This document shows, piece by piece, positions 10,618 through 64,000 of a stretch of 64,000 nucleotides of DNA. The stretch spans positions 217,244 through 281,243 of the forward strand of contig JAKVKH010000001.1 in NCBI GenBank assembly GCA_022486625.1, in the 5' to 3' direction. The stretch's first letter is position 1; each line of letters opens with the position of its first letter. The translations under genes and the position numbers were made by a program. This DNA comes from Butyrivibrio sp. (GTDB lineage Bacteria > Bacillota > Clostridia > Lachnospirales > Lachnospiraceae). The notes under the pieces were generated by a model. That model did not search any database. It had not been told where the DNA came from and saw only the letters and a list, made by a program, of their open reading frames with translations.

Positions 10618-11737
10618 ACAAATGCTTAACGAATCATTTAAGACAATCCACACAGGGGAGGTCGTTGAAGGTACTGTTATCGATGTTAAACCCGATGAGA
10701 TTATCTTAAATATCGGATATAAAGCCGATGGTATTCTTACCAAGAGCGAATACAGTAACGACAACAGTGTTGATCTCGCCGCAACAATCCATGTTGGTGA
10801 CAAGATGGATGTCAAGGTACTTAAAACCAATGATGCAGATGGACAGGTAATTCTTTCTTACAAGAGACTGGCACTTGACCGTGGCAACAAGAGAATTGAA
10901 GATGCATTCAACAACAAGGAAGTTCTTAAGGCCAAGGTTGTACAGGTACTTGAAGGCGGACTTGTAGTCGTTGTGGATGAAGTCAGAATTTTCATTCCGG
11001 CCAGCCTTGTATCAGATACTTATGAGAAGGATCTGACAAAGTATGACGGACAGGAAATTGAGTTTGTTGTAACAGAGTATAATCCGAAGAGAAGAAGATA
11101 TATCGGAAACAGAAGAATTCTGGTGTCTGCAGAAAAGGCAGAAAAGGCAAAGGAACTGTTTGAGACAATTCATGCAGGAGATGTTGTAGAAGGAACAGTC
11201 AAGAACGTAACAGATTTCGGTGCATTCATCGATCTGGGCGGCGCAGACGGACTTCTTCATATTTCAGAAATGTCCTGGGGTCGTGTAGAGAACCCGAAGA
11301 AGGTCTTCAAGGTAGGCGATCAGGTTAAGGTTCTGATTAAGAGCATTGATGGTAAGAAGATTGCTCTGAGCAGAAAATTTGAGAATGAGAATCCTTGGAA
11401 GGATGCAACAGAGAAGTATGCTGTTGGTAACGTCGTAACAGGAACTGTAGCAAGAATGACAGACTTTGGTGCATTTGTTGAGCTTGAACCTGGAATTGAT
11501 GCTCTTCTCCATGTATCACAGATCGCAAAAGAGCATGTAGATAAGCCCTCTGACGTATTAAAGGTTGGACAGGAAGTTACAGCAAAGATTGTTGATTTCA
11601 ATGAAGAAGATAAGAAGATCAGCCTTAGTATTAAAGCTATGCTGGCTCCTGAAAAGACTGATGATCAGGAAGATGGAGATGTTGTGTCCGTTGATATTGA
11701 TCAGGTAATTGCCGATCAGAAGAATGATCAGGAATGA
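10592..11737 (+). CDS. rpsA: S1 RNA-binding domain protein (ribosomal protein S1 homolog)
   Basis: This 381-residue protein has four S1/OB repeats, at about residues 16-85, 103-170, 192-260 and 278-350. Repeats 3 and 4 are the most canonical (VTDFGAFIDLGGADGLLHISEM and MTDFGAFVELEPGIDALLHVSQI). It is shorter than the six-repeat proteobacterial S1 but normal for Firmicutes. It probably binds mRNA at the ribosome. A GAGGAGG ribosome site lies inside the end of ispH, so translation is likely coupled. A strong terminator follows. Confidence 0.92.
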   Translation: MSEQDQTFEQMLNESFKTIHTGEVVEGTVIDVKPDEIILNIGYKADGILTKSEYSNDNSVDLAATIHVGDKMDVKVLKTNDADGQVILSYKRLALDRGNKRIEDAFNNKEVLKAKVVQVLEGGLVVVVDEVRIFIPASLVSDTYEKDLTKYDGQEIEFVVTEYNPKRRRYIGNRRILVSAEKAEKAKELFETIHAGDVVEGTVKNVTDFGAFIDLGGADGLLHISEMSWGRVENPKKVFKVGDQVKVLIKSIDGKKIALSRKFENENPWKDATEKYAVGNVVTGTVARMTDFGAFVELEPGIDALLHVSQIAKEHVDKPSDVLKVGQEVTAKIVDFNEEDKKISLSIKAMLAPEKTDDQEDGDVVSVDIDQVIADQKNDQE

Positions 11738-50253: not shown

Positions 50254-51456
50254 ATGGGAAAGATTGCAATGACAACACCGATCGTGGAGATGGACGGAGA
50301 CGAGATGACCAGAATTCTCTGGAAACTGATCAAGGAACATCTTCTGACACCTTACATTGATCTCAGAACAGAGTATTATGATCTGGGACTTAAGCACAGA
50401 GATGAGACAGATGATCAGGTTACCGTTGACAGTGCAAATGCGGCGCTCAAATATGGTGTTGCCGTGAAGTGTGCAACAATAACCCCCAATGCAGAGCGCG
50501 TAACGGAATATGGACTGAAGAAGATGTATAAGAGTCCTAACGGTACGATCCGTGCAATTCTTGACGGTACGGTTTTTCGTACACCCGTTATGGTAAAGGG
50601 AATTGAACCCTGTGTAAAAAACTGGGAAACACCGATTACGCTGGCTCGTCATGCGTATGGAGATGTGTATAAGAATACGGAAATCCGTGTTCCGGGAGCA
50701 GGAACGGCTGAGCTGGTATTTACGGCAGAGGATGGTACGCAGACACGCGAAGTGATTCAGAAATTTACAGGTCCCGGCATTATACAGGGAATTCATAATA
50801 CGGACAGATCCATTACCAGCTTTGCAAAGGCATGTTTCCAGTATGCACTGGATGAAAAAAAGGATCTCTGGTTCGGGACAAAGGATACCATCAGTAAGAC
50901 TTATGACAGAAGATTCAGAGAGATTTTTGAGGCAGCGTTCCAGGGAGAATATAAGGAAAAATTCGAACAGGCAGGTCTGACCTATTTTTATACACTGATT
51001 GATGATGCAGTTGCCCGTGTCATGAAGTCCAGAGGCGGATTTATCTGGGCATGCAAGAATTATGACGGAGATGTCATGAGCGATATGGTATCTTCTGCAT
51101 TTGGTTCTCTTGCAATGATGACATCGGTACTGGTGTCTCCGACAGGTGCATATGAGTATGAGGCAGCACACGGAACGGTGCAGAGACATTATTACAAATA
51201 CCTTAAGGGAGAGCCGACATCCACCAATCCTGTGGCAACGATTTTTGCATGGAGCGGAGCACTCAGGAAAAGAGGAGAGCTGGATGGAAGTCAGGAGCTG
51301 CAGGATTTTGCAGATCGTCTTGAAAAAGCAACACTCGGAACCATTGAGTCCGGAAAAATGACCAAGGATCTGGCGCTGATTACCACGCTTGATGATGTAA
51401 CGACACTGAATACAGAAGAATTTATTCTTGAGATACAGAAGAATCTTGAAGGTTGA
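50254..51456 (+). CDS. icd: NADP-dependent isocitrate dehydrogenase
   Basis: This 400-residue enzyme makes 2-oxoglutarate, CO2 and NADPH. It belongs to the dimeric, eukaryote-like subfamily. Motifs are [22 protein letters not shown] (substrate Ser and Arg), [23 protein letters not shown] and the metal Asp in [10 protein letters not shown]. The [20 protein letters not shown] block forms the NADP site. An AAGGAG site precedes the ATG. It completes a synthase-regulator-icd cluster that would feed glutamate synthesis. Confidence 0.95.
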
Positions 51457-51558
51457 AAATATAAAGCCTGATATAAAAAAAACGCCTTTTCGGTGGGTGG
51501 ACTTAGGGATTATGAAAAACAAGGTCTTTAAGGACAGCCTCTAAGCGGGAAAAAGAAT

Positions 51559-51598
51559 AACGGTCAGATGTGAGAAAGCCTCATGTCTGGCCGTTTTT
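51559..51598 (+). terminator. Terminator downstream of icd, near the left edge of the mobile element
   Basis: AACGGTCAGATGTGAG pairs with CTCATGTCTGGCCGTT, with G-T pairs, and ends in five T. Upstream, at 51476-51500, lies a weaker A-run/CGCC/T-run. Beyond this point GC content and codon use rise. Confidence 0.8.
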
Positions 51599-51726
51599 CT
51601 ATGCCCGGAGGGACACAGATATTTATCAATTTATCCTGCACATACCGCTTGCTATTCTTCCCGGACAGAGTGATGTATGTACGTACCAAAAGGCCACAGA
51701 GCCTGAAAAATCAAGGAGGCACGCAC

Positions 51727-52392
51727 ATGAAGATGAATTACGAAGGAAGACAGAGAAAAGAGCTGGTAGCCACCATCGCCGAGATTACCGGAGAAAAGGC
51801 TGTGTATATGAAGGCACCGACCTACGCTTACCAGATTGGGAGATTCACGATTGAGCGCAACGGAGACCTTTCCTGTGACGATGCGACGGCTCTGGAGGAA
51901 CTTCTCCCCAAGCTGGCAGAGAACGGATTTATCGCCGAACAAGAGCCGCAGGAGAACGCTACGAACGCTGACGGCTCCGGTCTGACGGTCACGGTTCCGG
52001 TCACAGCAGCATCGGTCGATAATCTCAAGAATCTGCTTGAGGCAAAGGGAGCACTCATCAAGAAGGCGCTCGGAATCGCCGACATCAGCATCAAGGTCGA
52101 GGATTATAAGGTTTCATTCCCCTGGTTTCCGGAGATGCCTGAACCGGACGAGGTCAAAGCCTACACCGAGTTCATCGCAGCCATCTGCCGGATGAGCAAG
52201 GAGCAGAAACGCATCAGCGCGACGGAGCGGCCTACGGATAATGAGAAGTTCACCTTCCGGGTATTTCTGATCCGGCTCGGCTTTATCGGTGATGAGTACA
52301 AGACCACTCGCCGGATTCTACTCCGGAACCTTTCCGGGAACAGCGCATGGCATAATGGTACACCAAGGAAGGAGGCCGAGGCTGATGATTAA
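51727..52392 (+). CDS. Conserved 'virulence-related' mobile-element protein
   Basis: This 221-residue protein starts MKMNYEGRQRKELVATIAEITG and has an IERNGDLSCDD segment. It resembles proteins widely annotated as virulence or virulence-related proteins in clostridial phages and conjugative elements; the name says little and no biochemical role is established. It has no membrane helix and no catalytic motif that I recognise. An AAGGAGG site nine bases upstream fixes the start; the track start at 51583 lies within the icd terminator. The next gene overlaps its stop. Confidence 0.7.
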   Translation: MKMNYEGRQRKELVATIAEITGEKAVYMKAPTYAYQIGRFTIERNGDLSCDDATALEELLPKLAENGFIAEQEPQENATNADGSGLTVTVPVTAASVDNLKNLLEAKGALIKKALGIADISIKVEDYKVSFPWFPEMPEPDEVKAYTEFIAAICRMSKEQKRISATERPTDNEKFTFRVFLIRLGFIGDEYKTTRRILLRNLSGNSAWHNGTPRKEAEADD

Positions 52393-52612
52393 GAAAGAAC
52401 AGCTGAAGGAACTCCGGCTTCAATACCCGGTCGAGACAAGGATAGAACTCATCCGAATGGACGATCCTGCCGCTCCTCCTATTGGTACGCAAGGCACCGT
52501 GACCGGAGTCGATGATATAGGAGACATTCTGGTTGACTGGGATAACGGTTCATCGCTGAATGTGGTACCGGAGATCGACCGCATCAGGAAGGTGGCAGAT
52601 TCTGATGAATGA
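52385..52612 (+). CDS. DUF4314 protein
   Basis: This 75-residue protein matches the DUF4314 pattern: KKEQLKELRLQYPVETRIELIRMDDP, then GTQGTVTGVDDIGDILVDWDNGSSLNVV. It forms a small beta-rich SH3-like fold common in phages and integrative elements. Function is unknown. The start is inside the end of the preceding gene, with AAGGAGG upstream, so the two are translationally coupled. Confidence 0.85.
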   Translation: MIKKEQLKELRLQYPVETRIELIRMDDPAAPPIGTQGTVTGVDDIGDILVDWDNGSSLNVVPEIDRIRKVADSDE

Positions 52613-52784
52613 TATTGTCCGAGAACAAATCCTCACCATCCGAGACAGCGGCCTGACGAATATGTTCGATGTAAACATGGTTCAGCGCCTTGCATACGAA
52701 CGAGATTATTATGAGCTTGTGCTGTGGTTGGAAGACCACAGGAAGGAATATGCCCGGTTTATCATGACCGGAGACACAGATTAA
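52605..52784 (+). CDS. DUF5049 protein
   Basis: This 59-residue protein (REQILTIRDSGLTNMFDVNMVQRLAYERDYYELVLWLED) fits DUF5049, a small helical protein that usually sits beside DUF4314 in phage and ICE modules. The ATG at 52605 overlaps the DUF4314 stop and has GGAAGGTGG upstream. The track start adds residues from another frame of DUF4314. A GC-rich hairpin (52790-52820) follows, then the oppositely oriented restriction cassette. Confidence 0.8.
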   Translation: MNDIVREQILTIRDSGLTNMFDVNMVQRLAYERDYYELVLWLEDHRKEYARFIMTGDTD

Positions 52785-52827
52785 AGGAAAGCCGCACCGG
52801 GGACTGCTCCCTGATGCGGCTATGCCA

Positions 52828-55788
52828 TTAATTGTTTATAACTTCTTCAATAATCTGTTTAACTTTCTTGTTGCTAAGCTGTTTATGGAAGGAAACGGTA
52901 TATCCGTCTAATGTCAATTGCTTGAAAAATACTTCTGCACACTTTATTTTTGCGTCCTCTTTGCCACGTAATGTGGACTGATTTTCCACAAGTTTTGTTT
53001 CAACAACAATGTTGAGCTCTTTCGAACCATCTACCTTTTTTACAACATACATGAAGTCCGGACTATAGTTTTCATCAACAATAGTAGGGATAGCTATGCT
53101 CGAACGGGGGATTTTTCCATAAACGACGACCTCAGAAATATCTGTCATGATGTTGTCTTTTTCGAGCGGAGAGTCAAATGCGATAGTGTCATATAAATAC
53201 TTTGCTGACGGCGTACCAGGAACGAGCATGGTGCCAACAACTCCCTGCTTAATGACTTCACGAGGAGAGCCATCTTTATACGTCAGAGCTGTTTCAGCAA
53301 CCTTCTGACTGGATTTTGAATACCGGAATCTTGCCTGCGTATTCGTTGTTTTCCAGTCTCGGAATTTTGATGTGATCTGAGCAACTGTATATTCGTTGAT
53401 TAAATCTGCTGTAATGGCTTTCTCTTTTGACAAATTCATGATGGCCTCATGAATCTTTACAATAGGAATGCTCGTCTGAATACTTATTCGTTTCAGGAAG
53501 TCATTGTAAGGCAACGGATGATTAACGGTGTACGTAACTCCAGTATCTCCACGAACTTCCATTCGACCAGTATCATTTACGGATACCTCATCTCTTCGAC
53601 TATAGGCAGATGTCATTGCAAAAGTATCGCCTTCGCGAAGAATTTTATCAAGAGCACCTGGTATTTCATTCTCAAGGTCTGCATCGTAGAACAAATAGTA
53701 TTTGCGGTTTATAGCTTCCCACAGTTCCTTCAGTTCTGAATATACCGCCTTGCGGATTTTGATGTTATTCTTTTCCTTTTTATTTCTGTCTGTTACCTTA
53801 CCTCCCTTAACGCCGGAAGTGAACTCTGGATAATCTGCGAAGAAAGCATTTCTGGTTTCGGTATTAATATTCATCTGGAAATCAATATATTTCTTCGCAA
53901 ACAGTTCGCCGAACAATGTATTTGAATCTGTTCCTCTTGCCTTGGCCACACGTTCAATCTCATTAGGATCAAGCTTCATTGTTTCAGGAAGTTCACCGTT
54001 AATCTCATCTACAAGCCTTTGTGCAAAATCCGCCTCAGTGAAATCAACGATATAATTCAGCTGAAATTCCTCATTTGAGATTCTATTGCCGTTTTCATCA
54101 ACCGGGAGTCTTAACCCACGGCCAACTTCCTGAAGTTTGCTGTTCTCGCTGCCACTGGAGCGAAGTTTCGCAATGGTAAAAACGTTCGGATTGTCCCAGC
54201 CTTCCTTCAGCGTCCATTTTGAGAAAAGGAAACGGCGAATATTATATGAACCGTCTTCATTCCTGATAGAAAGCAGCCCTTTTTTGTTATGAAGGATATC
54301 ATCTACCTCTTTTGCAATGTCTTCATCTGAATCACTGTTATCCTGCGAAAAATATCCAGCGTGACATCCAGGAATGTCTGCAAGGCTTGCTTCAAGGTAT
54401 TCTTTATATTCACTCTCTTCCGGAGGAAGAGTGGCGATAAGTTCTGTCAGCTTTTCTGTAAGCAGCCGTTCAAACATATCGCGAAGATATGGTACCTTGC
54501 CGTCTTCGGAATCACGGTATGACGTAATATCATCAATAAAGAACAGGGCAAGAGTTTTGATTTTGAACTGCCTGCCGGAAAAATTCTGCCGTTCAGTTTC
54601 AAAATGTCGTTGTATTGCCAACTTAAGCATTTGCTCCTGATATGAAGAAGAGTAAATATCCGTATTAAATTCTTCCCCTTGGAATTTTGTCTGTCCGTTA
54701 TTCAGTTCAATATAATTCTTCCCAATCGCGCTTATGTGTATGCCATCAAAATCCGGCGAGATAATAGAAAGCGAATCGCCTGCAGTCAGTGTGAAAGTTT
54801 TTGGATTTTCACTTGCTTTCTTCAGCTGGAAATTTGCTGATGTCTTTGAGTCAATCGATACGATTTTGACTTTTTCCTGTTTCTGAGAAAGAGGCTCAAA
54901 ATGTTCCTTTGCAACACCTTTTATAAGGTTTTGGTTGAAGGAATCACACGCATTCAATTCGTAGACAAGATTGTTAAAGTCCTTGCCCGTTATCTTATTT
55001 CTACCTCGCCCGGTAGTAACTTCCGGGAACGTCGCGCCAAAACGAATTATAAGCTGCGGTGACAGTTCTTCAACTATTTTCTTATATGCCTGCTGGTCAC
55101 GGGAGAAACGATGAGGTTCATCTATGATCACTATTGGTTTTGTGGCTTTTAATGCATCATACGGTCTGTCGAATCCCTCAACAAGATAATCATAGTCTGA
55201 GCGCGTCAGCATATTACCATTTGTAAGAAGCTGCATATTAACAAGCAATACATAAATCCTATTGCTGTTCTGAATAGATCCTGTAACAAAATCACGTACC
55301 GGTGCAGGCATTGCCAAAAAGCCCTTTTTCTTTTTCTTTGGGCTTTCTAAAACTCCGAGTTCTATATCACAGTTATAACCACACGCATCCGAGAAATGAT
55401 GTCTTACATACGGTTCTGAAAGAAACTGATTTGTCCCGGCTTTTATTGGCAGAGAAGGGACTGCAATTATAAATTTATTGAAACCACATTTTTTATGCAA
55501 TTCAAAAATGGTATGTGTGTATACATATGTTTTCCCGGTGCCAGTTTCCATCTTTATATCAAGATTCAGATATTCTCCAGCATCCGGGGCAATATTATGT
55601 TTATAATCTTCGCGTATGTTCTTCTGAATATCCGCAATGTTTCTTCGAATCCTGTCTTCTCTATAATCAAAAGACGGGTTTTGATAGGATATCGTCGGAG
55701 GAACGATTGCAACGCCCTCGAATACATCAGCTATCGCATCAACGGCTTTTTGCTGATGGTCGAGTCCTTTTTCAAGAATTAGTTCCAA
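52828..55788 (-). CDS. res: Type III restriction endonuclease, Res subunit
   Basis: This 986-residue protein is the ATP-dependent cleavage subunit. The N-terminal helicase has Walker A METGTGKTYVY (near 80-90) and Walker B IIDEPHRF. C-terminal helicase motifs include SKWTLKEGWDNPNVF and LQEVGRGLRLP (motif VI). The last 100 residues hold a PD-(D/E)xK nuclease (NYSPDFMYVV, then VVETK). It would cut between two inversely oriented sites when complexed with Mod. The frame is intact. It follows mod by 12 bases. Confidence 0.95.
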   Translation of the reverse strand: MELILEKGLDHQQKAVDAIADVFEGVAIVPPTISYQNPSFDYREDRIRRNIADIQKNIREDYKHNIAPDAGEYLNLDIKMETGTGKTYVYTHTIFELHKKCGFNKFIIAVPSLPIKAGTNQFLSEPYVRHHFSDACGYNCDIELGVLESPKKKKKGFLAMPAPVRDFVTGSIQNSNRIYVLLVNMQLLTNGNMLTRSDYDYLVEGFDRPYDALKATKPIVIIDEPHRFSRDQQAYKKIVEELSPQLIIRFGATFPEVTTGRGRNKITGKDFNNLVYELNACDSFNQNLIKGVAKEHFEPLSQKQEKVKIVSIDSKTSANFQLKKASENPKTFTLTAGDSLSIISPDFDGIHISAIGKNYIELNNGQTKFQGEEFNTDIYSSSYQEQMLKLAIQRHFETERQNFSGRQFKIKTLALFFIDDITSYRDSEDGKVPYLRDMFERLLTEKLTELIATLPPEESEYKEYLEASLADIPGCHAGYFSQDNSDSDEDIAKEVDDILHNKKGLLSIRNEDGSYNIRRFLFSKWTLKEGWDNPNVFTIAKLRSSGSENSKLQEVGRGLRLPVDENGNRISNEEFQLNYIVDFTEADFAQRLVDEINGELPETMKLDPNEIERVAKARGTDSNTLFGELFAKKYIDFQMNINTETRNAFFADYPEFTSGVKGGKVTDRNKKEKNNIKIRKAVYSELKELWEAINRKYYLFYDADLENEIPGALDKILREGDTFAMTSAYSRRDEVSVNDTGRMEVRGDTGVTYTVNHPLPYNDFLKRISIQTSIPIVKIHEAIMNLSKEKAITADLINEYTVAQITSKFRDWKTTNTQARFRYSKSSQKVAETALTYKDGSPREVIKQGVVGTMLVPGTPSAKYLYDTIAFDSPLEKDNIMTDISEVVVYGKIPRSSIAIPTIVDENYSPDFMYVVKKVDGSKELNIVVETKLVENQSTLRGKEDAKIKCAEVFFKQLTLDGYTVSFHKQLSNKKVKQIIEEVINN

Positions 55789-55800
55789 AATGCGCCCTCC

Positions 55801-57759
55801 TTAATAACGAATATCGAGATTGACCTTGAGGTTTTTCTCGGAATCCTTAAGTATTTTGATGTTTGTTTTCAAGTTTTCAGTATTTACATAATGAAAGCTA
55901 TATCCAAATACAACTATATTTGGGGGATTAAAAGCACCTTCAGTGTTATATTTATCAATCAATGCCTTGATGGCATTTTCATCCATACCTTCGTCAATAA
56001 GATACAAGTGATTCTTGCACCAGTACGCTCTATAGCCATTCAAATCTACGGTTTGTACAGGAGCATCGAACTTATAACCATCGCGTATAAGCCATGTATA
56101 CAGAACTGTAGGGACTCCAAAATCGCTTAGAATATTGTTTGTGATTACAAAGCCCTGGCCTGTCGGGGCAAACTTTTCAATCTTATCTATCGTCTTTTGA
56201 TTTGGTGCTTTCAACGTATAATGCTTAAACCCCAGGTCTGCTGACGTGTCTGGGTATTCTTGCTTTATAGCTGTTGCAGCGTTTTTAATTCGTTCTATTC
56301 CAAGTTGATCTATAGTAGAATACCCAGCTTGAGCAGCTATGCTTCCAGGTTTTACTGCTTCGGGCAGTTGGATCAATATATATTTGCGATTATGATGATT
56401 TTTAGCATTGTCACGCATTATAGCATGGGCAGTTGTTGAGCTTCCTGCAAAGAAATCAACAATAATATCTCCCGATGAACTTCCTATGGATATTATTTTT
56501 TCCATTAACCCAATCGGCTTCGCTGTTTCAAAAACTTTCTGGTTATTAAATAGGGAGCGAATGTCTCTGGTTGCTTTTTTATTACCCTCAGTGTCATCCC
56601 ACAATCCATCAACGTCTTCTTCAGAATCAAATACCTGTTTCCAAATGTTACCTGGTTTTTTTGTTCTGTCCTCTAAATAGTACTTTTGATAGGGATGCCA
56701 TCCATTTTCTCCATTACGTTCGGTTTTTTTCCATTCGATTAATCCGTCTTCTTCAAGCTGTAGAGCCGTGTTCTGCGCACAAATCCACCGACTTTCATAC
56801 CCAGTTGGACCGTATGGAAAGATTTCTGTCCCGTCTGGAGCAATCATCGGATAAAACATTGTGGGTCTATCTTCTCGTCTATCTTCTCCACCTGTTCTTC
56901 TTAATGATCTGGTGAGATAGCGGTTTCCATTCTCATCCACCTCATTATATATTTCTGCATCACTCTCAGACATTTCAAGTCCTCGAATTACAGCCGAGTA
57001 TATGTTTTTGGAATAAACGAGAATATAATCAAGCTCATTTACCAAGCCGTCAAAGCCACCACCTGTAGGTGTGCCTGTTGCGCGAGTAATACAGGTTAGA
57101 AAATTATTCTCACCGAAAACATCATCGCATACAATTTTGCAGTTCGCTTGTTCATTATCATCAATCGAAATGAAGATTATTCCATCATCATCCAGAAGAT
57201 CTCTTGCCAATTGGAGACGTGGATACATAAAGGTTAGCCATGCTGAATGGGAAGCGCTACCACGATTAGTTAAATTGAGAATACGTTGTGCCTCTTCCTC
57301 ATCGATGCTTAGTTTTTCTGTCAAATCCTCAACAGTGAATTTAAAACTATCAGAATATACAAACCCATCTGACCCGGTGTTATATGGCGGGTCGATATAA
57401 ATGCACTTTACTTCTCCCGAATAGGATTTGAGAAGATGCTTAAGAGCATCAAGATTATCACCACTAATATAAACATTTTCACTGTTAATATTTTCCGGCT
57501 TCGAATTGTGCTCATCATCCGGCACGATAACAGTTTCTGTATCAAGTGACACCAGCAGCTTGGCATAGCTTTTGCCAAGGAATTTTAATTCATATCCTTC
57601 GTGGGAAATATCAACTTTGTCTTTCAGATATTCTGAAAACCGTTCCATATCAAATGATCCATCAGATTTAAAACATGACGGAAAATTGGTTTTCAGAATG
57701 TCCATTTCTTTACCGTTGGGAACAACACTTTCATTAGCGTTGATAATATCTTTGATCAT
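55801..57759 (-). CDS. mod: Type III DNA methyltransferase, Mod subunit
   Basis: This 652-residue beta-class adenine methyltransferase has DPPYNTG (motif IV, near 123-129) before the SAM loop DFFAGSSTTAHA (motif I, near 440), the beta-class order. The intervening 200 residues contain the target-recognition region, which sets the specificity; the site cannot be read from sequence alone. No simple-sequence tract suggesting phase variation was seen. Its start overlaps the XRE gene by ATGA. Confidence 0.95.
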   Translation of the reverse strand: MIKDIINANESVVPNGKEMDILKTNFPSCFKSDGSFDMERFSEYLKDKVDISHEGYELKFLGKSYAKLLVSLDTETVIVPDDEHNSKPENINSENVYISGDNLDALKHLLKSYSGEVKCIYIDPPYNTGSDGFVYSDSFKFTVEDLTEKLSIDEEEAQRILNLTNRGSASHSAWLTFMYPRLQLARDLLDDDGIIFISIDDNEQANCKIVCDDVFGENNFLTCITRATGTPTGGGFDGLVNELDYILVYSKNIYSAVIRGLEMSESDAEIYNEVDENGNRYLTRSLRRTGGEDRREDRPTMFYPMIAPDGTEIFPYGPTGYESRWICAQNTALQLEEDGLIEWKKTERNGENGWHPYQKYYLEDRTKKPGNIWKQVFDSEEDVDGLWDDTEGNKKATRDIRSLFNNQKVFETAKPIGLMEKIISIGSSSGDIIVDFFAGSSTTAHAIMRDNAKNHHNRKYILIQLPEAVKPGSIAAQAGYSTIDQLGIERIKNAATAIKQEYPDTSADLGFKHYTLKAPNQKTIDKIEKFAPTGQGFVITNNILSDFGVPTVLYTWLIRDGYKFDAPVQTVDLNGYRAYWCKNHLYLIDEGMDENAIKALIDKYNTEGAFNPPNIVVFGYSFHYVNTENLKTNIKILKDSEKNLKVNLDIRY

Positions 57760-57992
57760 TTTTCCTTTTCCTCCGTCGTTTTATTATTATCATCGGGCAG
57801 GAACTCTACGATATCATCTACCTTACAATTCAGTACCCGGCATATCTTTTCTATCGAATCAAGAGACACATACTCGTCCCTTCTCATCCGTGTAGAAATA
57901 TTCGCGCTGTATCCGGCTTCTTTCTGAAGCTCTGCAGCGGTCATATTTCTGTCTATCAACATATGAAATAGTTTCTTATAGGTTACAGCCAT
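57756..57992 (-). CDS. XRE-family regulator of the restriction-modification cassette
   Basis: This 78-residue Cro/C1-type helix-turn-helix protein (NMTAAELQKEAGYSANISTRMRRDEYVSLDSIEKICRVLNCKVDDIVEF) resembles controller-type regulators. It is the first gene of a three-gene unit and overlaps mod by four bases. Two GTxTACTAA boxes upstream (58016-58024 and 58050-58058) could be its operator. It probably tunes R-M expression on entry to a new cell. Confidence 0.85.
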   Translation of the reverse strand: MAVTYKKLFHMLIDRNMTAAELQKEAGYSANISTRMRRDEYVSLDSIEKICRVLNCKVDDIVEFLPDDNNKTTEEKEK

Positions 57993-58015
57993 AGTACGCC
58001 TCCCTTTTGTCCACG

Positions 58016-58069
58016 GTGTACTAACGAATTTAAAAATTCACTTTATGTGGTATACTAATATAGTGTATC
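58016..58069. promoter_or_regulatory. Putative operator/promoter region between the XRE-mod-res unit and the plus-strand genes
   Basis: GTGTACTAA and GTATACTAA are near-identical direct repeats 34 bases apart. The second is followed by TAGTGTATC, making an imperfect inverted repeat. A plus-strand promoter is plausible (TTCACT, 16 bases, TATAGT). Confidence 0.4.
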
Positions 58070-58126
58070 ACGTAAATGTGAAATTTTCAAGATGAAATGA
58101 AATGTAAATAATAAGTGAACTGCTGT

Positions 58127-58157
58127 CCTCTGCCCACCGGCAGGGGATATTTTTTTG
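58127..58157 (+). terminator. Terminator with no recognisable gene upstream
   Basis: CCTCTGCC-CACC-GGCAGGGG is followed by ATAT and seven T. Upstream on this strand there is only the region between it and the divergent XRE gene. Confidence 0.75.
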
Positions 58158-58264
58158 TCCAAATATCCACTCAAATCGTCCGTTTATCTCCAGTGGGAAG
58201 TAAGAGGGGTTGATTTTCCCGGTAAGAAACAGAGGAAGGTAACTCCTCCAAACAAAATATCGAA

Positions 58265-58370
58265 AGCCTGATTACGTATAGGGCCGGGATACATATAGTC
58301 TGCTTCTGCATTTTACGCAGTAGGACTATCGGTACCTCTGGATAACTGTGCCCTTTTATGTAATCAGGCT
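58265..58370 (+). other. Nested hairpin region upstream of the sigma-like gene
   Basis: AGCCTGATTAC (58265-58275) pairs perfectly with GTAATCAGGCT (58360-58370). Nested inside are ATAGTC/GACTAT and CTGC/GCAG arms around an ATTTTAC loop. The 439-base gene-free stretch 57993-58431 thus holds operator-like repeats, a terminator and this structured segment, perhaps a leader RNA or small RNA. Confidence 0.5.
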
Positions 58371-58431
58371 CTCTTATTCAGCCGCCCTATGCTATTCCGG
58401 CTCTTTTCCGTTCAGGCGGAAAGGAACGGAT

Positions 58432-58821
58432 ATGTTTATCAATTACAGGCTGGAGGACGGTTCCACTGTGCTGGTGGAGGTCACGGAAGAAACTGCCGCC
58501 TACATTCTTGAAAACGATCGGGAAATGGCAAACGCCGACCGCAGGGAACGCTATCACTGCCCGTATCGCATCGAGGCCATGGAGTATGAGGGCGATTCCC
58601 TCGCGTACCGCCTGACGCCGGAAGAAATATTCGTCCGTAAGGAGGAACAGGAGCATATCAGCGATACGCTTTCCTGCCTGACAGACGTTCAGCTTCGGAG
58701 GCTCACCATGAAAGCGGACGGCATGACGCTCCGGGAAATTGCCGCTGCGGAAGGCACCACGGTCAATGCTGTTATGGAATCACTGGAGGCGGCAAAGAAA
58801 AAATTCAAAAAACATTTCTAA
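58432..58821 (+). CDS. Sigma-70 region 4-like helix-turn-helix protein
   Basis: This 129-residue protein has an N-terminal unknown part (FINYRLEDGSTVLVEVTEETAAYILENDREMANADRRERYH). Its C-terminal region 4-like HTH reads LSCLTDVQLRRLTMKADGMTLREIAAAEGTTVNAVMESLEAAKKKF. Such ArpU/sigma-like proteins are common early or late regulators in clostridial mobile elements. The ATG at 58432 has AAAGGAA upstream; the track start at 58348 lies inside the structured region. It probably controls the element genes downstream. Confidence 0.8.
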   Translation: MFINYRLEDGSTVLVEVTEETAAYILENDREMANADRRERYHCPYRIEAMEYEGDSLAYRLTPEEIFVRKEEQEHISDTLSCLTDVQLRRLTMKADGMTLREIAAAEGTTVNAVMESLEAAKKKFKKHF

Positions 58822-58927
58822 AAACACCTGTACAAAACGACCTGTTTTTCTCCGTATAGTGAAGGACTTGATGTCCTCGGAAAGATGCAAAACGCCATGA
58901 ACAAACTTATGAAAGGAGGACGCCCGA

Positions 58928-59443
58928 ATGAAACACATCACCATTTATACGGCAAACTGCAGGGATAATCCGCTTAATACATGCTATCCCGACAAGCACA
59001 TCATCAAATCGGCATACGAGTTGAAAGCTGCCGCCTGCTATGATCAGGTCTTTGCCGAGTATCGTAACAACCACAGGGCAATCGACGATTTTCTCTATTC
59101 TGATTGTCTTCCGTTTGACTGCGACAACGACCACTCAGAAGATTCGGAAGAATGGGTAACGCCCGCAGATGTAGAAAAAGCTTTCCCCGGAGTGCAGTTC
59201 TACGTCATCTACAGTAGGCACCACATGAAACAGAAAAACAAGTATAGTCCAAGACCGAGGTTCCATGTGATTTTTCCCATCGAGCCTGTTACGGACAGCA
59301 ACGCTTACCGTGGCCTGAAAGATTCTGTTATCGCATTCTTCCCGTATTTCGATACGAATGCCAAGGATTCGGCCAGATTCTTCTTCGGTGTAAAAAGTCC
59401 TGTAGTTGAATATCACGGAGGTGCCAAAGATGAATCTGAGTGA
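58928..59443 (+). CDS. Archaeo-eukaryotic primase (PrimPol-like) catalytic domain protein
   Basis: This 171-residue protein appears to be only the catalytic half of an AEP primase. It has a DxD motif in LPFDCDNDHS (near residue 63), an S-x-H motif in IYSRHHMKQK, and RPRFHVIFPI. It overlaps the following primase C-terminal/helicase gene by 14 bases. The primase-helicase found as one protein in many phages is therefore split here into two coupled genes. A GAAAGGAGG ribosome site precedes the ATG. It should prime replication of the element. Confidence 0.75.
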   Translation: MKHITIYTANCRDNPLNTCYPDKHIIKSAYELKAAACYDQVFAEYRNNHRAIDDFLYSDCLPFDCDNDHSEDSEEWVTPADVEKAFPGVQFYVIYSRHHMKQKNKYSPRPRFHVIFPIEPVTDSNAYRGLKDSVIAFFPYFDTNAKDSARFFFGVKSPVVEYHGGAKDESE

Positions 59444-61220
59444 ATTTATGAAAACGCAGGCAACTGAACAGGCGCTGATAACAGCACCAGCCGAGAAGCC
59501 GGATTTCGATGAGGTTATCCCCGAAGGTCAGCGCAACAGCACTATGTCACGTATTGCCGGGAGGATCATCAAACGGTACGGCGATACTAATGAAGCCAAA
59601 CGCAGATTTGCCGAGAAAGCCGCGGCCTGCAATCCTCCGCTTGATCCCAAGGAACTGCAGACCATCTGGAGCAGCGCCATAAAGTTCGGCGGCAAGGTTT
59701 CTCAGCAGGACGGATACATACCGCCGGAGGATTACAACAATCCCACTCCGAGAAAGCCTGCGGACTATTCAGATCTCGGTCAGGCGTATGCTTTCGCCAA
59801 GTTCTGCCGCGACTATGTCAGGTATTCCCCGGCAACGGATTACATCGTCTACAACGGCGTCTACTGGGAAGAGTCAAAGCCCAGAGCGCAGGCGGCGCTT
59901 GATGAGTTTACGGACGCACAGCTGAAAGAAGTGGAAAAGCATATCGCTGATACTGAAAAATATATGGAAACGACCGGAGCAGACGCTGTTGTCGCGGAAC
60001 ATGGCAAGAATGCTGCCCAGTACATGAACGAGGAACAGCTGAAAGCTTACTTAGCCAATACCGGAGCGATAGCCTACCGGACATTTGTCATTAAGCACCG
60101 GGATTCCAAGTATCTGGCGGCGGCGCTGAAAGAAGCCCGTCCTATGGTCGAGATAGATCATCATGAACTGAACAAGGACGGCTTTTTCCTGAATACGCCG
60201 GATTACACGGTCGATCTCAGAAAAGGCGCAGACGGTAAACTGCCTCACCGGGCGGAGGACTTCATCACGAAGTGTACTGCCGTTGCTCCGGGAACAAAAG
60301 GAGCAGATATCTGGGAGGACGCGCTTAATGTGTTCTTCTGTGGAGATACGGAACTGAAATCCTATGTTCAGCGGATTGCCGGACTTTGTGCCATCGGCCA
60401 TGTCTATATCGAAGCACTCATCATCGCTTATGGAGAAGGACGAAATGGCAAGTCTACGTTCTGGAATTCAATCGCAAGAGTCCTCGGTTCCTACAGCGGC
60501 CACATATCCGCAGACGCACTGACGGTCGGATGTCGCAGAAACGTTAAACCGGAACTGGCTGAGACGAATGGCGTCAGAGCCTTGTTCGCCGCTGAACTGG
60601 AAGAAGGGCTGAGGCTCAATACCTCGGTCGCAAAGCAGCTCAGTTCTACGGACGAGATTTATGCGGAGAAGAAATATAAAGATCCGTTCAGCTTCACGCC
60701 CTGTCACACGCTCATCCTTTACACGAACCATCTGCCGAAGGTCGGAGCCAATGATCCCGGCACTTGGCGCAGGCTCATTGTCGTACCATTTGGCGCAAGG
60801 ATTGAAGGAAACGGCGATCACAAGAACTATGCCGATTATCTGTTTGAAAACGCCGGAGAAGCAATTCTCTCATGGATCATCGAAGGCGCGAAGGCAGTCA
60901 TTGACGCAGGCTTTCATATTGAACAGCCGGAATGCGTAAGGTCGGCTACGAGCGCATATCGAGAAAACAGCGACTGGCTCGGCAACTTTATTTACGAGTG
61001 CTGTGATATCGGAGACGGATTCAGTGCTTCGTCAGGAGACCTTTATACCCAGTACAGATATTTCTGTCAGAGGGTGGGCGATTACACCAGAAGCACCACG
61101 GATTTCTATACCGCGATCGAGTTCGCAGGCTTTACCCGCAGGCGCACCAGAAACGGGCGTTTCGTTGACGGTCTGCGGCTCAAATCGGACTTTGAAAACG
61201 ATACACCACCACTCGTGTGA
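59430..61220 (+). CDS. D5-like primase C-terminal / superfamily 3 helicase
   Basis: This 596-residue protein begins with a PriCT-like region (EGQRNSTMSRIAGRIIKRYGD, about 35-90). A D5_N domain (about 180-310) is followed by an SF3 AAA+ helicase. The helicase has Walker A AYGEGRNGKSTFWNSIARVL (near 340), Walker B LFAAELEEGLRLN and sensor TLILYTNHLPKVGANDPGTWRR. This is the P4-type phage/plasmid replicative helicase. The ATG at 59430 with GGAGG upstream is preferred over the track TTG. Confidence 0.92.
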   Translation: MNLSEFMKTQATEQALITAPAEKPDFDEVIPEGQRNSTMSRIAGRIIKRYGDTNEAKRRFAEKAAACNPPLDPKELQTIWSSAIKFGGKVSQQDGYIPPEDYNNPTPRKPADYSDLGQAYAFAKFCRDYVRYSPATDYIVYNGVYWEESKPRAQAALDEFTDAQLKEVEKHIADTEKYMETTGADAVVAEHGKNAAQYMNEEQLKAYLANTGAIAYRTFVIKHRDSKYLAAALKEARPMVEIDHHELNKDGFFLNTPDYTVDLRKGADGKLPHRAEDFITKCTAVAPGTKGADIWEDALNVFFCGDTELKSYVQRIAGLCAIGHVYIEALIIAYGEGRNGKSTFWNSIARVLGSYSGHISADALTVGCRRNVKPELAETNGVRALFAAELEEGLRLNTSVAKQLSSTDEIYAEKKYKDPFSFTPCHTLILYTNHLPKVGANDPGTWRRLIVVPFGARIEGNGDHKNYADYLFENAGEAILSWIIEGAKAVIDAGFHIEQPECVRSATSAYRENSDWLGNFIYECCDIGDGFSASSGDLYTQYRYFCQRVGDYTRSTTDFYTAIEFAGFTRRRTRNGRFVDGLRLKSDFENDTPPLV

Positions 61221-61226
61221 CAGGCA

Positions 61227-61307
61227 TTGACGGTCATATATAAAAATTATTATAGGCGATTCTTAAGTCAAATCTCTATATATAGAAGTTTATATAATGA
61301 CCGTCAA
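61227..61307. repeat. Long inverted repeat downstream of the replicative helicase
   Basis: TTGACGGTCAT-ATATAAA (61227-61244) and TTTATATAATGACCGTCAA (61289-61307) pair with a single one-base bulge. The 44-base AT-rich loop contains TATATATAG. The position directly after primase/helicase genes suits a replication origin, though a regulatory or terminator role is possible. Confidence 0.65.
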
Positions 61308-61348
61308 GACTGACACACACCCACTGACGAAGGAAGGAGGACAACACC

Positions 61349-61621
61349 ATGAGATTAATTCCAGTAGGCATCACCGAGAAGGACGGAGCGTTTCCGCTGC
61401 TCGCCAAAGCGTCTGATTTCAGCACCGACCATTATGACGGCATTCAGGTGAGAAAGCGCCGCGACGGAAAGCCTGTGCTTGTTATGAAAAGCAGGAACGA
61501 CGCGCCTCTGCCTTGGATGGTAGAGTACGGTTTCTCTCAGATCTATTTCAAGAGTTTCGATGAAGCAATCAAGTTCTGCAGCAGTCGCGGGATGCAGCTT
61601 GTGAAAGAACAGATGGAATAA
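61349..61621 (+). CDS. Conserved mobile-element protein of unknown function
   Basis: This 90-residue protein (MRLIPVGITEKDGAFPLLAKASDF) has no membrane helix and no motif that I recognise. A GAAGGAGG site eight bases upstream and codon use like its neighbours support it as real. It lies between the helicase and a zinc-ribbon gene. Confidence 0.65.
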   Translation: MRLIPVGITEKDGAFPLLAKASDFSTDHYDGIQVRKRRDGKPVLVMKSRNDAPLPWMVEYGFSQIYFKSFDEAIKFCSSRGMQLVKEQME

Positions 61622-61624
61622 GAC

Positions 61625-61687
61625 TGGGAGGGGCGGGTCAAATCTCTGTGGCAAATGCCGCGGAAAACGGCGCCCCCTCTCGCACGC
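61625..61687 (+). other. GC-rich phage-like site, possible cos/packaging region
   Basis: GGGAGGGGCGGGTCAAATCT followed by GCCGCGGAAAACGGCGCC and CCTCTCGCACGC makes an imperfect GC-rich palindrome in a non-coding gap. From memory, very similar sequence precedes the small-terminase gene of many clostridial prophages. No terminase follows here. The packaging role is inferred. Confidence 0.4.
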
Positions 61688-61741
61688 AAAAAAGCGTATT
61701 CAAACGGGTAATTAACCCCAAAATCAAAGGAGGATTTCACC

Positions 61742-62029
61742 ATGAAAACTGTTTATCCATTAAGAAATGCCGTCAAGAACGGAACCAGAAAAAGCCCAAT
61801 GTATTCTGGAAATACAGAGGAATTCGTCAGCGAGATCTATGACTTCTGGCTGACGGACGAAGGCAGCAATCGCTACCGCCTGCATTCAAAGCATGAAATG
61901 CGCTGGAATGATTCCCTTGCCTATGATGTTGTCTGCCCGAAGTGCGGACAGACGCTCTCGGTATGCGGAACACCGCTGAACTACAATGACCTGTTCCTGT
62001 ACGAATGCAGGAACTGCGGAAAAAACTAA
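61742..62029 (+). CDS. Small zinc-ribbon protein
   Basis: This 95-residue protein has a C-terminal two-Cys-pair zinc ribbon (CPKCGQTLSVCG, then CRNCGKN; residues about 65-94). The N-terminal part (YPLRNAVKNGTRKSPMYSGN) is basic and not recognised. A perfect AAAGGAGG site precedes the ATG. It may bind nucleic acid, as many phage zinc ribbons do. The capsid gene follows after 14 bases. Confidence 0.75.
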   Translation: MKTVYPLRNAVKNGTRKSPMYSGNTEEFVSEIYDFWLTDEGSNRYRLHSKHEMRWNDSLAYDVVCPKCGQTLSVCGTPLNYNDLFLYECRNCGKN

Positions 62030-62043
62030 TGGAGGTTATGACT

Positions 62044-62982
62044 ATGAACGACTATACAAATATGACCGGAGACATCGGTTACGAGAAAGAATTCTGGAAT
62101 GCCATGCGCGGCAACAAGGGCGCTGAGGTAAAGCTTGACGCAGGACGCGACAGCACCACAGGCACCTATTCGCTGCCTGATGCCACACAGGCCGGATTTG
62201 CAAAGGAACTGGACAAGCAGAGCGTTTTCCGCTCCCTTGCCACGGTCATCAAAGCCTACCGGGGCGATTATCGAATTCTTGCGAAAGATTCCGATGATAT
62301 TGCCGCATGGGTTACAGAGGGCGGGGAAATTCCTGCTTTTGAAGGTATTGGCGATTTCACTCAGCACGAAGTAGGCAGCCATAAGCTGGCAAACATCGTG
62401 AGGCTTGATTCGGACTTTGTCTGTGACGCGTCTTTCAGTTTTGAGGACTATCTTGTTTCACGCCTTGCCCGGAACTTTGGCTTTGCCGAGGAGGACGCTT
62501 TTGTAAACGGCACCGGAGTAAATATGCCGACAGGCATTCTCGATACGGCTGCAGGAGCCAAGACAGGAGTGACCACCGCCGCAATCGCCACTGACAATAT
62601 CATCACGCTGTTCTTCTCTGTGGACAGCGAATACCGGAAGGATGCCGTCTGGATGATGAACGACCGCACAGCGCTTCATCTGAGGACGCTCAAGGACAGT
62701 GCGGGCAATTACCTCTGGCGCAGTACTGATGATACGATTCTCAGTCACAAAGTTGTTATTTCCAACTATATGCCAAACCCGGACAGCGGCAAAAGCCCGG
62801 TTATCTTCGGCGATATGAGCTATTACTGGATTATCGAACGCAAGCCGCTCACCATCCGCCCTCTGGTGGAAAAATACGCAGTTTACAATCAGATCGCTTA
62901 TCTGTCCTTTGAATTTCTGGACGCAAAGCTTATCCGCCGCGAGGCTGTAAAGGCTCTGACGCTCACCGCCGGAGGAAAATGA
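62044..62982 (+). CDS. HK97-fold phage major capsid protein (orphan)
   Basis: This 312-residue protein matches HK97-type capsid proteins from about residue 20: SVFRSLATVIKAYRGDYRI (N-arm/E-loop side), AWVTEGGEIPAFEGIGDFTQHEV, FEDYLVSRLARNFGFAEEDAFVNGTG and the C-terminal RREAVKALTL. It lacks the usual 100-residue delta/scaffold region, and no protease, portal or terminase gene is near. The ATG at 62044 has GGAGG seven bases upstream. It may form a small capsid, serve a satellite, or be a relic kept in frame. Confidence 0.85.
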   Translation: MNDYTNMTGDIGYEKEFWNAMRGNKGAEVKLDAGRDSTTGTYSLPDATQAGFAKELDKQSVFRSLATVIKAYRGDYRILAKDSDDIAAWVTEGGEIPAFEGIGDFTQHEVGSHKLANIVRLDSDFVCDASFSFEDYLVSRLARNFGFAEEDAFVNGTGVNMPTGILDTAAGAKTGVTTAAIATDNIITLFFSVDSEYRKDAVWMMNDRTALHLRTLKDSAGNYLWRSTDDTILSHKVVISNYMPNPDSGKSPVIFGDMSYYWIIERKPLTIRPLVEKYAVYNQIAYLSFEFLDAKLIRREAVKALTLTAGGK

Positions 62983-62984
62983 TT

Positions 62985-63146
62985 ATGGAAGATAAGAAAG
63001 TAACGTTCATGGAAAAGACCATCGGAGACACGACCTATATCGTGGAGGCTGCCGCAGGCGCGAATGCCCGTGAGACCGTGTATGAGAAGCTGAAAAAGCT
63101 GATTCTGCAGGATCCCGACAGACACAATTTGTTAAAGGCTTCATAA
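62985..63146 (+). CDS. TnpW-like transposon-encoded small protein
   Basis: This 53-residue frame, too short for the supplied track, starts 2 bases after the capsid stop with GGAGG upstream. It reads MEDKKVTFMEKTIGDTTYIV and ends with ETVYEKLKKLILQD. The pattern of a short I-G-x-T-T-Y strand and a C-terminal helix resembles TnpW-family proteins found beside Tn4451-type recombinases. Function is unknown. Its placement before the recombinase supports the assignment. Confidence 0.75.
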   Translation: MEDKKVTFMEKTIGDTTYIVEAAAGANARETVYEKLKKLILQDPDRHNLLKAS

Positions 63147-63157
63147 GACGATAATGC

Positions 63158-63186
63158 TTGACTTCTTCGCAGCAGGTATGGATATA
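63158..63186 (+). promoter_or_regulatory. Candidate promoter of the serine recombinase
   Basis: TTGACT (63158-63163) and GATATA (63181-63186) are 17 bases apart in the 79-base gap, so the recombinase may be expressed apart from the genes upstream. Confidence 0.4.
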
Positions 63187-63192
63187 TAGTAG

Positions 63193-64000
<808 letters not shown>

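Follow-up and report, generated by a model that had tools for sequence, protein, structure and literature searches.

Gene content of the element

The window analysed here, a 64,000-nucleotide stretch of a Butyrivibrio sp. contig, ends in a mobile element (51488–64000) that is delimited by a shared inverted end motif and by complementary flanks forming a terminator. Its left end carries three genes on the forward strand: one without a Pfam match (51730–52392), to which a protein in the viral record L065 is similar by eye; one for a DUF4314 protein (52376–52612; PF14192, E 5.2e-29); and one for a DUF5049 protein (52560–52784; PF16468, E 2.3e-31). The cargo lies on the reverse strand and consists of a type III restriction enzyme (Res, 52828–55788; PADLOC REase_III, E 1.8e-256) and a type III DNA methyltransferase (Mod, 55801–57759; PADLOC MTase_III, E 9.5e-175). 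Next to it, also on the reverse strand, is an HTH regulator (57756–57992; PF13443), which is kept at the same place in the related loci L017, L020, L021, L139–L142 and L144.

The remaining genes are all on the forward strand. A sigma-factor-like regulator (58426–58821; phrog_11138, phrog_1740) precedes a split primase-helicase gene, with an N-terminal part (58928–59443; phrog_1883) and a D5/P4-type primase-helicase (59406–61220; D5_N PF08706, E 8.5e-20; phrog_1883, E 6e-255). Two small genes of the module follow. The first, orf90 (61349–61621, 90 aa), is conserved in relatives. The second encodes a Zn-ribbon protein (61742–62029; PF12760, E 9.3e-6), in whose alignment C65, C68 and C89 are invariant and C92 is near-invariant; a separate Zn-ribbon scan returned nine viral contigs, each with an adjoining delta-less capsid gene. 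Then come the gene for a delta-less, HK97-fold major capsid protein homologue of 312 aa (62044–62982), TnpW (62985–63146; PF14202, E 2.5e-9) and the 5′ part of a large serine recombinase gene (63199–64000; PF00239, E 5e-23; PF07508). The capsid gene is located in the core that runs from the primase to the recombinase, outside the variable cargo arm.

Ends of the element and insertion site

The contig breaks off at window position 64000, within the recombinase gene, and the remaining part of this gene most likely sits on contig C32, where the element continues for ∼0.96 kb to give an estimated total of ∼13.5 kb. The 162-nt overlap with C32 is not identical (98% at the protein level). That C32 carries a second copy of the element is less likely, as the capsid and TnpW genes match once each in the genome and the two flanks make one terminator stem. 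Judged from the sequence, C32 most probably represents the right-hand side of this insertion.

A search for the empty site in 70 genomes of the genus returned solely the icd flank, so we placed the borders by comparison with the ends of related elements. Sixteen of them share AATCCCT on the right side, within ∼40–60 bases past the recombinase stop, and the readable left ends share TTAGGGATT, the inverted counterpart of the right-end motif. In the window, the left end is approximate (about 51488–51498), with the terminal motif CTTAGGGATT at 51502, directly past icd. The left flank ATAAAAAAAACGCCTTTT is complementary to the C32 right flank AAAAGGCGTTTTTTTTAT, and when joined the two fold as an intrinsic terminator. 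Terminator-like stems are also produced by the paired flanks of the Bacillus badius plasmid element and of L071. A TTTTT run lies 3′ of the right end in 13 of the 16 elements compared with 8.8% of random windows (p 8e-12, the true significance being lower because several of the 16 are closely related).

The placement of the terminator was followed at window positions 51440–51510, on C32 and at the right ends of L017, L020, L057, L067, L070–L072, L137–L139 and L141–L145. The 3′ stem and T-run come after the right end, and joining the flanks restores the terminator hairpin. Members with a TnpX-type recombinase appear to insert into intrinsic terminators.

The capsid protein

The capsid ORF is uninterrupted and starts with ATG, and a GGAGG ribosome-binding site lies ahead of it at 62031–62035 on the same strand. 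An earlier note on this DNA had already remarked on the intact frame and the good ribosome site. The protein covers positions 1–279 of the 280 in the Pfam Phage_capsid profile PF05065 (E 1.8e-65), the only family returned by the Pfam search, with no match to an encapsulin family. Its PHROG matches are ‘major head protein’ families. With an in-frame stop 18 codons 5′ of the ATG, the gene has no room for a delta region. Delta-type relatives have ∼90–130 additional codons.

To place the start of the protein relative to a mature capsid chain, we used profile searches with PDB chains, in which residue 54 of the mature HK97 (gp5) chain corresponds to profile position 79 and residue 144 of the phi12 CP to profile position 38. 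As the phi12 CP is cleaved at 128/129 (PMC8569155), the two alignments place the mature N-terminus at around profile position 23–26. By this estimate the protein has only about 20–25 residues ahead of the mature body. Both the missing delta region and the start almost at the mature capsid body had been proposed in the earlier note, and both hold.

The structure prediction and homologue search that the note suggested were also carried out. The AlphaFold2 model has a capsid-type fold (pLDDT 86) and, among solved structures, is closest to the RcGTA capsid, followed by phage capsids and that of the cf-PICI EcCI2. The homologue search revealed widespread delta-less relatives.

No other head genes were found in the element

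No portal, protease, scaffold or terminase gene was found among all genes inspected from 51.5 to 64 kb, which bears out the claim that no protease, portal or scaffold gene is nearby. The whole genome (99.9% complete) contains no PF04860 portal and no second Phage_capsid match. With respect to head genes the description of the capsid gene as an ‘orphan’ is apt, but it misses the membership of the gene in a conserved mobile module.

Delta-type loci served as controls. All 19 delta-type control records have portal and TerL, compared with 0 of 20 delta-less records if one TerL fragment below threshold at the edge of a contig is set aside. Short fragments are common among the delta-less records; the longer elements L017, L020, L137 and L139 lack portal and TerL too. 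Two further delta-less records, the viral records L065 (114 kb) and L068 (67 kb), have portal genes ∼14 and 22 kb from the element, in separate DNA. It is possible that these are helper pairs, or prophages that merely lie nearby.

A scan for the PF04586 protease was uninformative since the delta-type controls were negative as well, and ClpP-type proteases from the control loci were used as queries instead. These detected a ClpP-type prohead protease at 81 of 86 delta-type loci and at none of the 52 delta-less loci, although some of the latter are a single locus retrieved more than once in overlapping pieces. In genomes, delta-less capsids are found together with delta-type capsids more often than expected, but the association is weak (4/11 versus 40/380, p 0.026).

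The element family and its variation

Relatives in viral contigs were missed with a single query sequence and came from an alignment-based scan built on nine delta-less proteins. This gave 80 loci in two groups, sharply separated by how many codons precede the capsid body that was matched. The delta-less group (22 of 80) has 0–45 such codons, and element genes adjoin the capsid gene in all of its loci but the fragment L056. The delta-bearing group (58 of 80) has about 84–201, with the exception of L077 with 46, which has exactly the same capsid core as the delta-bearing L079 and L080. No element genes were found at the 58 delta-bearing loci besides one distant recombinase match.

The module is present in the 22 viral contigs, in several genomes and on one B. 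badius plasmid, pPM400, and the same gene order is seen in distant Bacillota. L016 and L017, relatives at 94–96% identity, have the same module, with L017 carrying a type I restriction system where the element in the window has type III. The B. badius plasmid element (L020) carries type III restriction-modification genes, HTH, primase, capsid, TnpW and recombinase. Across the family the restriction cargo is of type I, II, IIG-like or III, and is exchanged between elements while the capsid gene is retained. There are three recombinase types: a TnpX-like serine recombinase with TnpW, tandem serine recombinases, and a Tn916-type integrase, the last carried by L054. The capsid gene thus belongs to a widespread, recombinase-mobilised family that has a primase-helicase of its own and interchangeable restriction systems.

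Several individual loci are worth recording. In L021, L060, L062 and L074 the module of primase, orf90, Zn-ribbon and capsid genes lies upstream of tandem serine recombinases. Genome G503 has two element copies at two sites (L139 and L140), one with a type IIG-like restriction-methyltransferase and the other with type III. On the B. badius plasmid, an OLD/GajA-like AAA ATPase gene (L020:4707–6323) adjoins the type III restriction system. L146 is a decayed copy in which the capsid gene is cut to 124 aa, and in L017 TnpW (10942–11100) has an internal stop, the capsid and recombinase genes of this locus being intact. L019 (MT838964.1, 4.7 kb), a fragment of such an element, was deposited as a human faecal ‘Bacteriophage sp.’.

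Phylogeny and selection

In a maximum-likelihood tree of 127 capsid proteins, one branch parts 41 delta-less from 86 delta-bearing sequences (support 100/100, in 100% of bootstrap trees). The tree is unrooted and the delta-less set is accordingly one side of a branch, and not a proven clade. The dN/dS of the capsid gene against its two nearest relatives is 0.17 and 0.24, and values across the family range from 0.06 to 0.24. The value for TnpW was dropped because of the internal stop in L017. Of 137 positions conserved in delta-type capsids, 85 persist in half or more of the delta-less proteins; at other positions, residues are conserved in the delta-less group instead, for example F125, F145, E196 and P268.

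From these comparisons, we conclude that the delta-less capsids are a maintained, deeply diverged lineage and not debris. The low dN/dS and the deep group on one side of the branch uphold the earlier claim of selection for a function; homologues are not found solely with full head genes, nor is selection relaxed, the two observations that the earlier note had set against that claim. For the same reasons, together with the identical gene order in distant Bacillota, we reject the capsid gene as the leftover of a decayed prophage, a most improbable origin that an isolated head gene usually signals and to which the degraded copy L146 (124 aa) lends some support, since the head cluster is neither present nor recently lost.

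A proposed satellite that may use helper heads

The element is mobile, has its own replication and integration genes, and lacks the genes for a full virion, as is characteristic of a satellite. Of the three functions put forward in the earlier note, a satellite capsid and interference with a helper phage fit best, given the mobility, the primase and recombinase, the defence cargo, and no PF03432 relaxase seen in the viral records scanned; the third, an encapsulin-like shell, finds no support. We consider it an even call that the element is a phage satellite whose capsid protein co-assembles with the shell of a helper and redirects or poisons it. Neither a terminase small subunit nor a packaging site was identified for the element, and this counts against a satellite.

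On this proposal, infection by a phage that has a related cluster of HK97 head genes would cause the element to excise and replicate. Any such helper must arrive from outside, as the host genome has no PF04860 portal. The delta-less protein would then join the growing shell of the helper, most likely as particular capsomers, like the Ccm protein of SaPIbov5, because a protein without delta probably cannot nucleate a procapsid alone. Ccm is unable to build a shell alone and the delta-less protein is presumably no better, which makes co-assembly the most economical proposal. The helper yield would fall, and heads sized for the small element may result. The portal, protease, terminase and tail of the helper would serve the element in trans, and the restriction cargo would shield the host from other phages.

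Poisoning might also be the whole of the function. The delta-less capsid would then be a dominant-negative poison of incoming capsids, in a pure defence factor, and the element would spread unpackaged. Plasmid-expressed Ccm alone lowers the phi12 titre 10^3–10^4 fold (PMC5052747), and the cargo of the elements is mostly restriction-modification. The position of the capsid gene tells against this: it is part of the core that runs from primase to recombinase and stays in place when the cargo changes. Poisoning and piracy are in any case compatible with each other. We regard defence alone as unlikely, while taking it seriously.

The conservation of orf90 and the Zn-ribbon gene just upstream, found with this capsid type alone, raises a different idea, namely that the protein assembles by itself into a small capsid or an encapsulin-like shell, for which orf90 or the Zn-ribbon protein might provide scaffold or cargo. 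Certain HK97-fold shells form without a delta domain. We nevertheless judge self-assembly to be improbable. Portal, terminase and protease genes were not found, and among solved structures the closest relatives are capsids of phages, a GTA and a cf-PICI. The encapsulin version is rejected: the protein belongs to PF05065, with no encapsulin family match in Pfam, and a check for a cargo-loading partner found no dedicated cargo enzyme, the neighbours being the primase, the Zn-ribbon protein, TnpW and the recombinase, with orf90 and the Zn-ribbon protein confined to these elements. Ccm, in which the delta domain is still present, forms no shell alone (PMC8569155).

Bacterial immunity can be triggered by capsid proteins (PMC9712102), and a regulator-like Zn-ribbon protein adjoins the capsid gene, so the protein could be a sensor or decoy that binds an incoming capsid or scaffold, signals infection, and induces the element or its defence. 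Sensing alone would not need the full capsid fold and the phage-conserved positions that have been kept, and we hold this to be very improbable.

Novelty and implications

The open literature searched covers Ccm and the capsid homologues of PmCI172 and EcCICFT073, but describes neither the delta-less capsid family nor such an element, and it likewise contains no account of intrinsic terminators as the target of an element with a serine recombinase. The report of ‘IME_Rho_tet’ (PMC12904643) was rejected as a precedent for the latter: terminators are unmentioned and the canonical element is from Roseburia hominis. The novelty of the delta-less capsid element is provisional. A distinct satellite class is a real prospect, and we would put just short of even the chance that this is an undescribed, large class in Bacillota, combining exchangeable restriction, terminator targeting and the parasitism or sabotage of phage heads via a scaffold-less capsid protein.

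If satellite use of helper heads is correct, capsid piracy by satellites reaches commensal Clostridia and other Bacillota, and has a further route besides alternative scaffolds and delta-bearing capsid homologues. The role of a permanently scaffold-less capsid protein in a foreign shell would become testable. Lone ‘phage major capsid protein’ annotations would denote defence-carrying mobile elements, not prophage debris, and would provide a handle on finding more mobile restriction systems. These elements occur in at least 22 viral records of IMG/VR and so are probably taken for phages in current counts.

Comparison with known systems

The element shares a TnpX-like large serine recombinase and TnpW with Tn4451-like integrative mobilizable elements. 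It differs from these in having primase and capsid genes, and no PF03432 relaxase was found in it. A scan for this single relaxase family was negative in 13 viral records holding the element, and on the B. badius plasmid gave a weak match at 39 kb, outside the element (∼79–93 kb). As in P4-like satellites, there is a P4/D5-type primase, a small size and no head cluster; whereas P4 resizes P2 heads by the external scaffold Sid (PMC7552001), the element here has a capsid homologue.

The cf-PICI EcCI2 (PDB 9gyi) has an HK97-fold satellite capsid that is among the best structural matches, but cf-PICIs encode all of their own head and packaging proteins (PMC11921389), in contrast to the single head gene here. 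The PICIs PmCI172 and EcCICFT073 are likewise satellites with a capsid protein homologue; these are from Gram-negative hosts with no delta-less clade described, and EcCICFT073 adds a head decoration gene (PMC6092414).

What the element has in common with the cos-type SaPIs that carry Ccm is its small size, its integration, one HK97-fold capsid homologue, and the absence of a full head cluster and of a portal, terminase or protease of its own. The Ccm of SaPIbov5 forms the pentamers of a mixed shell, turns phi12 heads from prolate to isometric and cuts the phi12 titre by several orders of magnitude (PMC8569155, PMC5052747). There is no detectable sequence kinship between the capsid protein here and Ccm, the phi12 CP being found at E 0.05 at best, and the 87-residue delta domain of Ccm, which is cleaved, has no equivalent in the delta-less protein. 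Unlike SaPIbov5, the present element combines its capsid gene with a serine recombinase, TnpW, restriction cargo, orf90, a Zn-ribbon protein and a terminator target.
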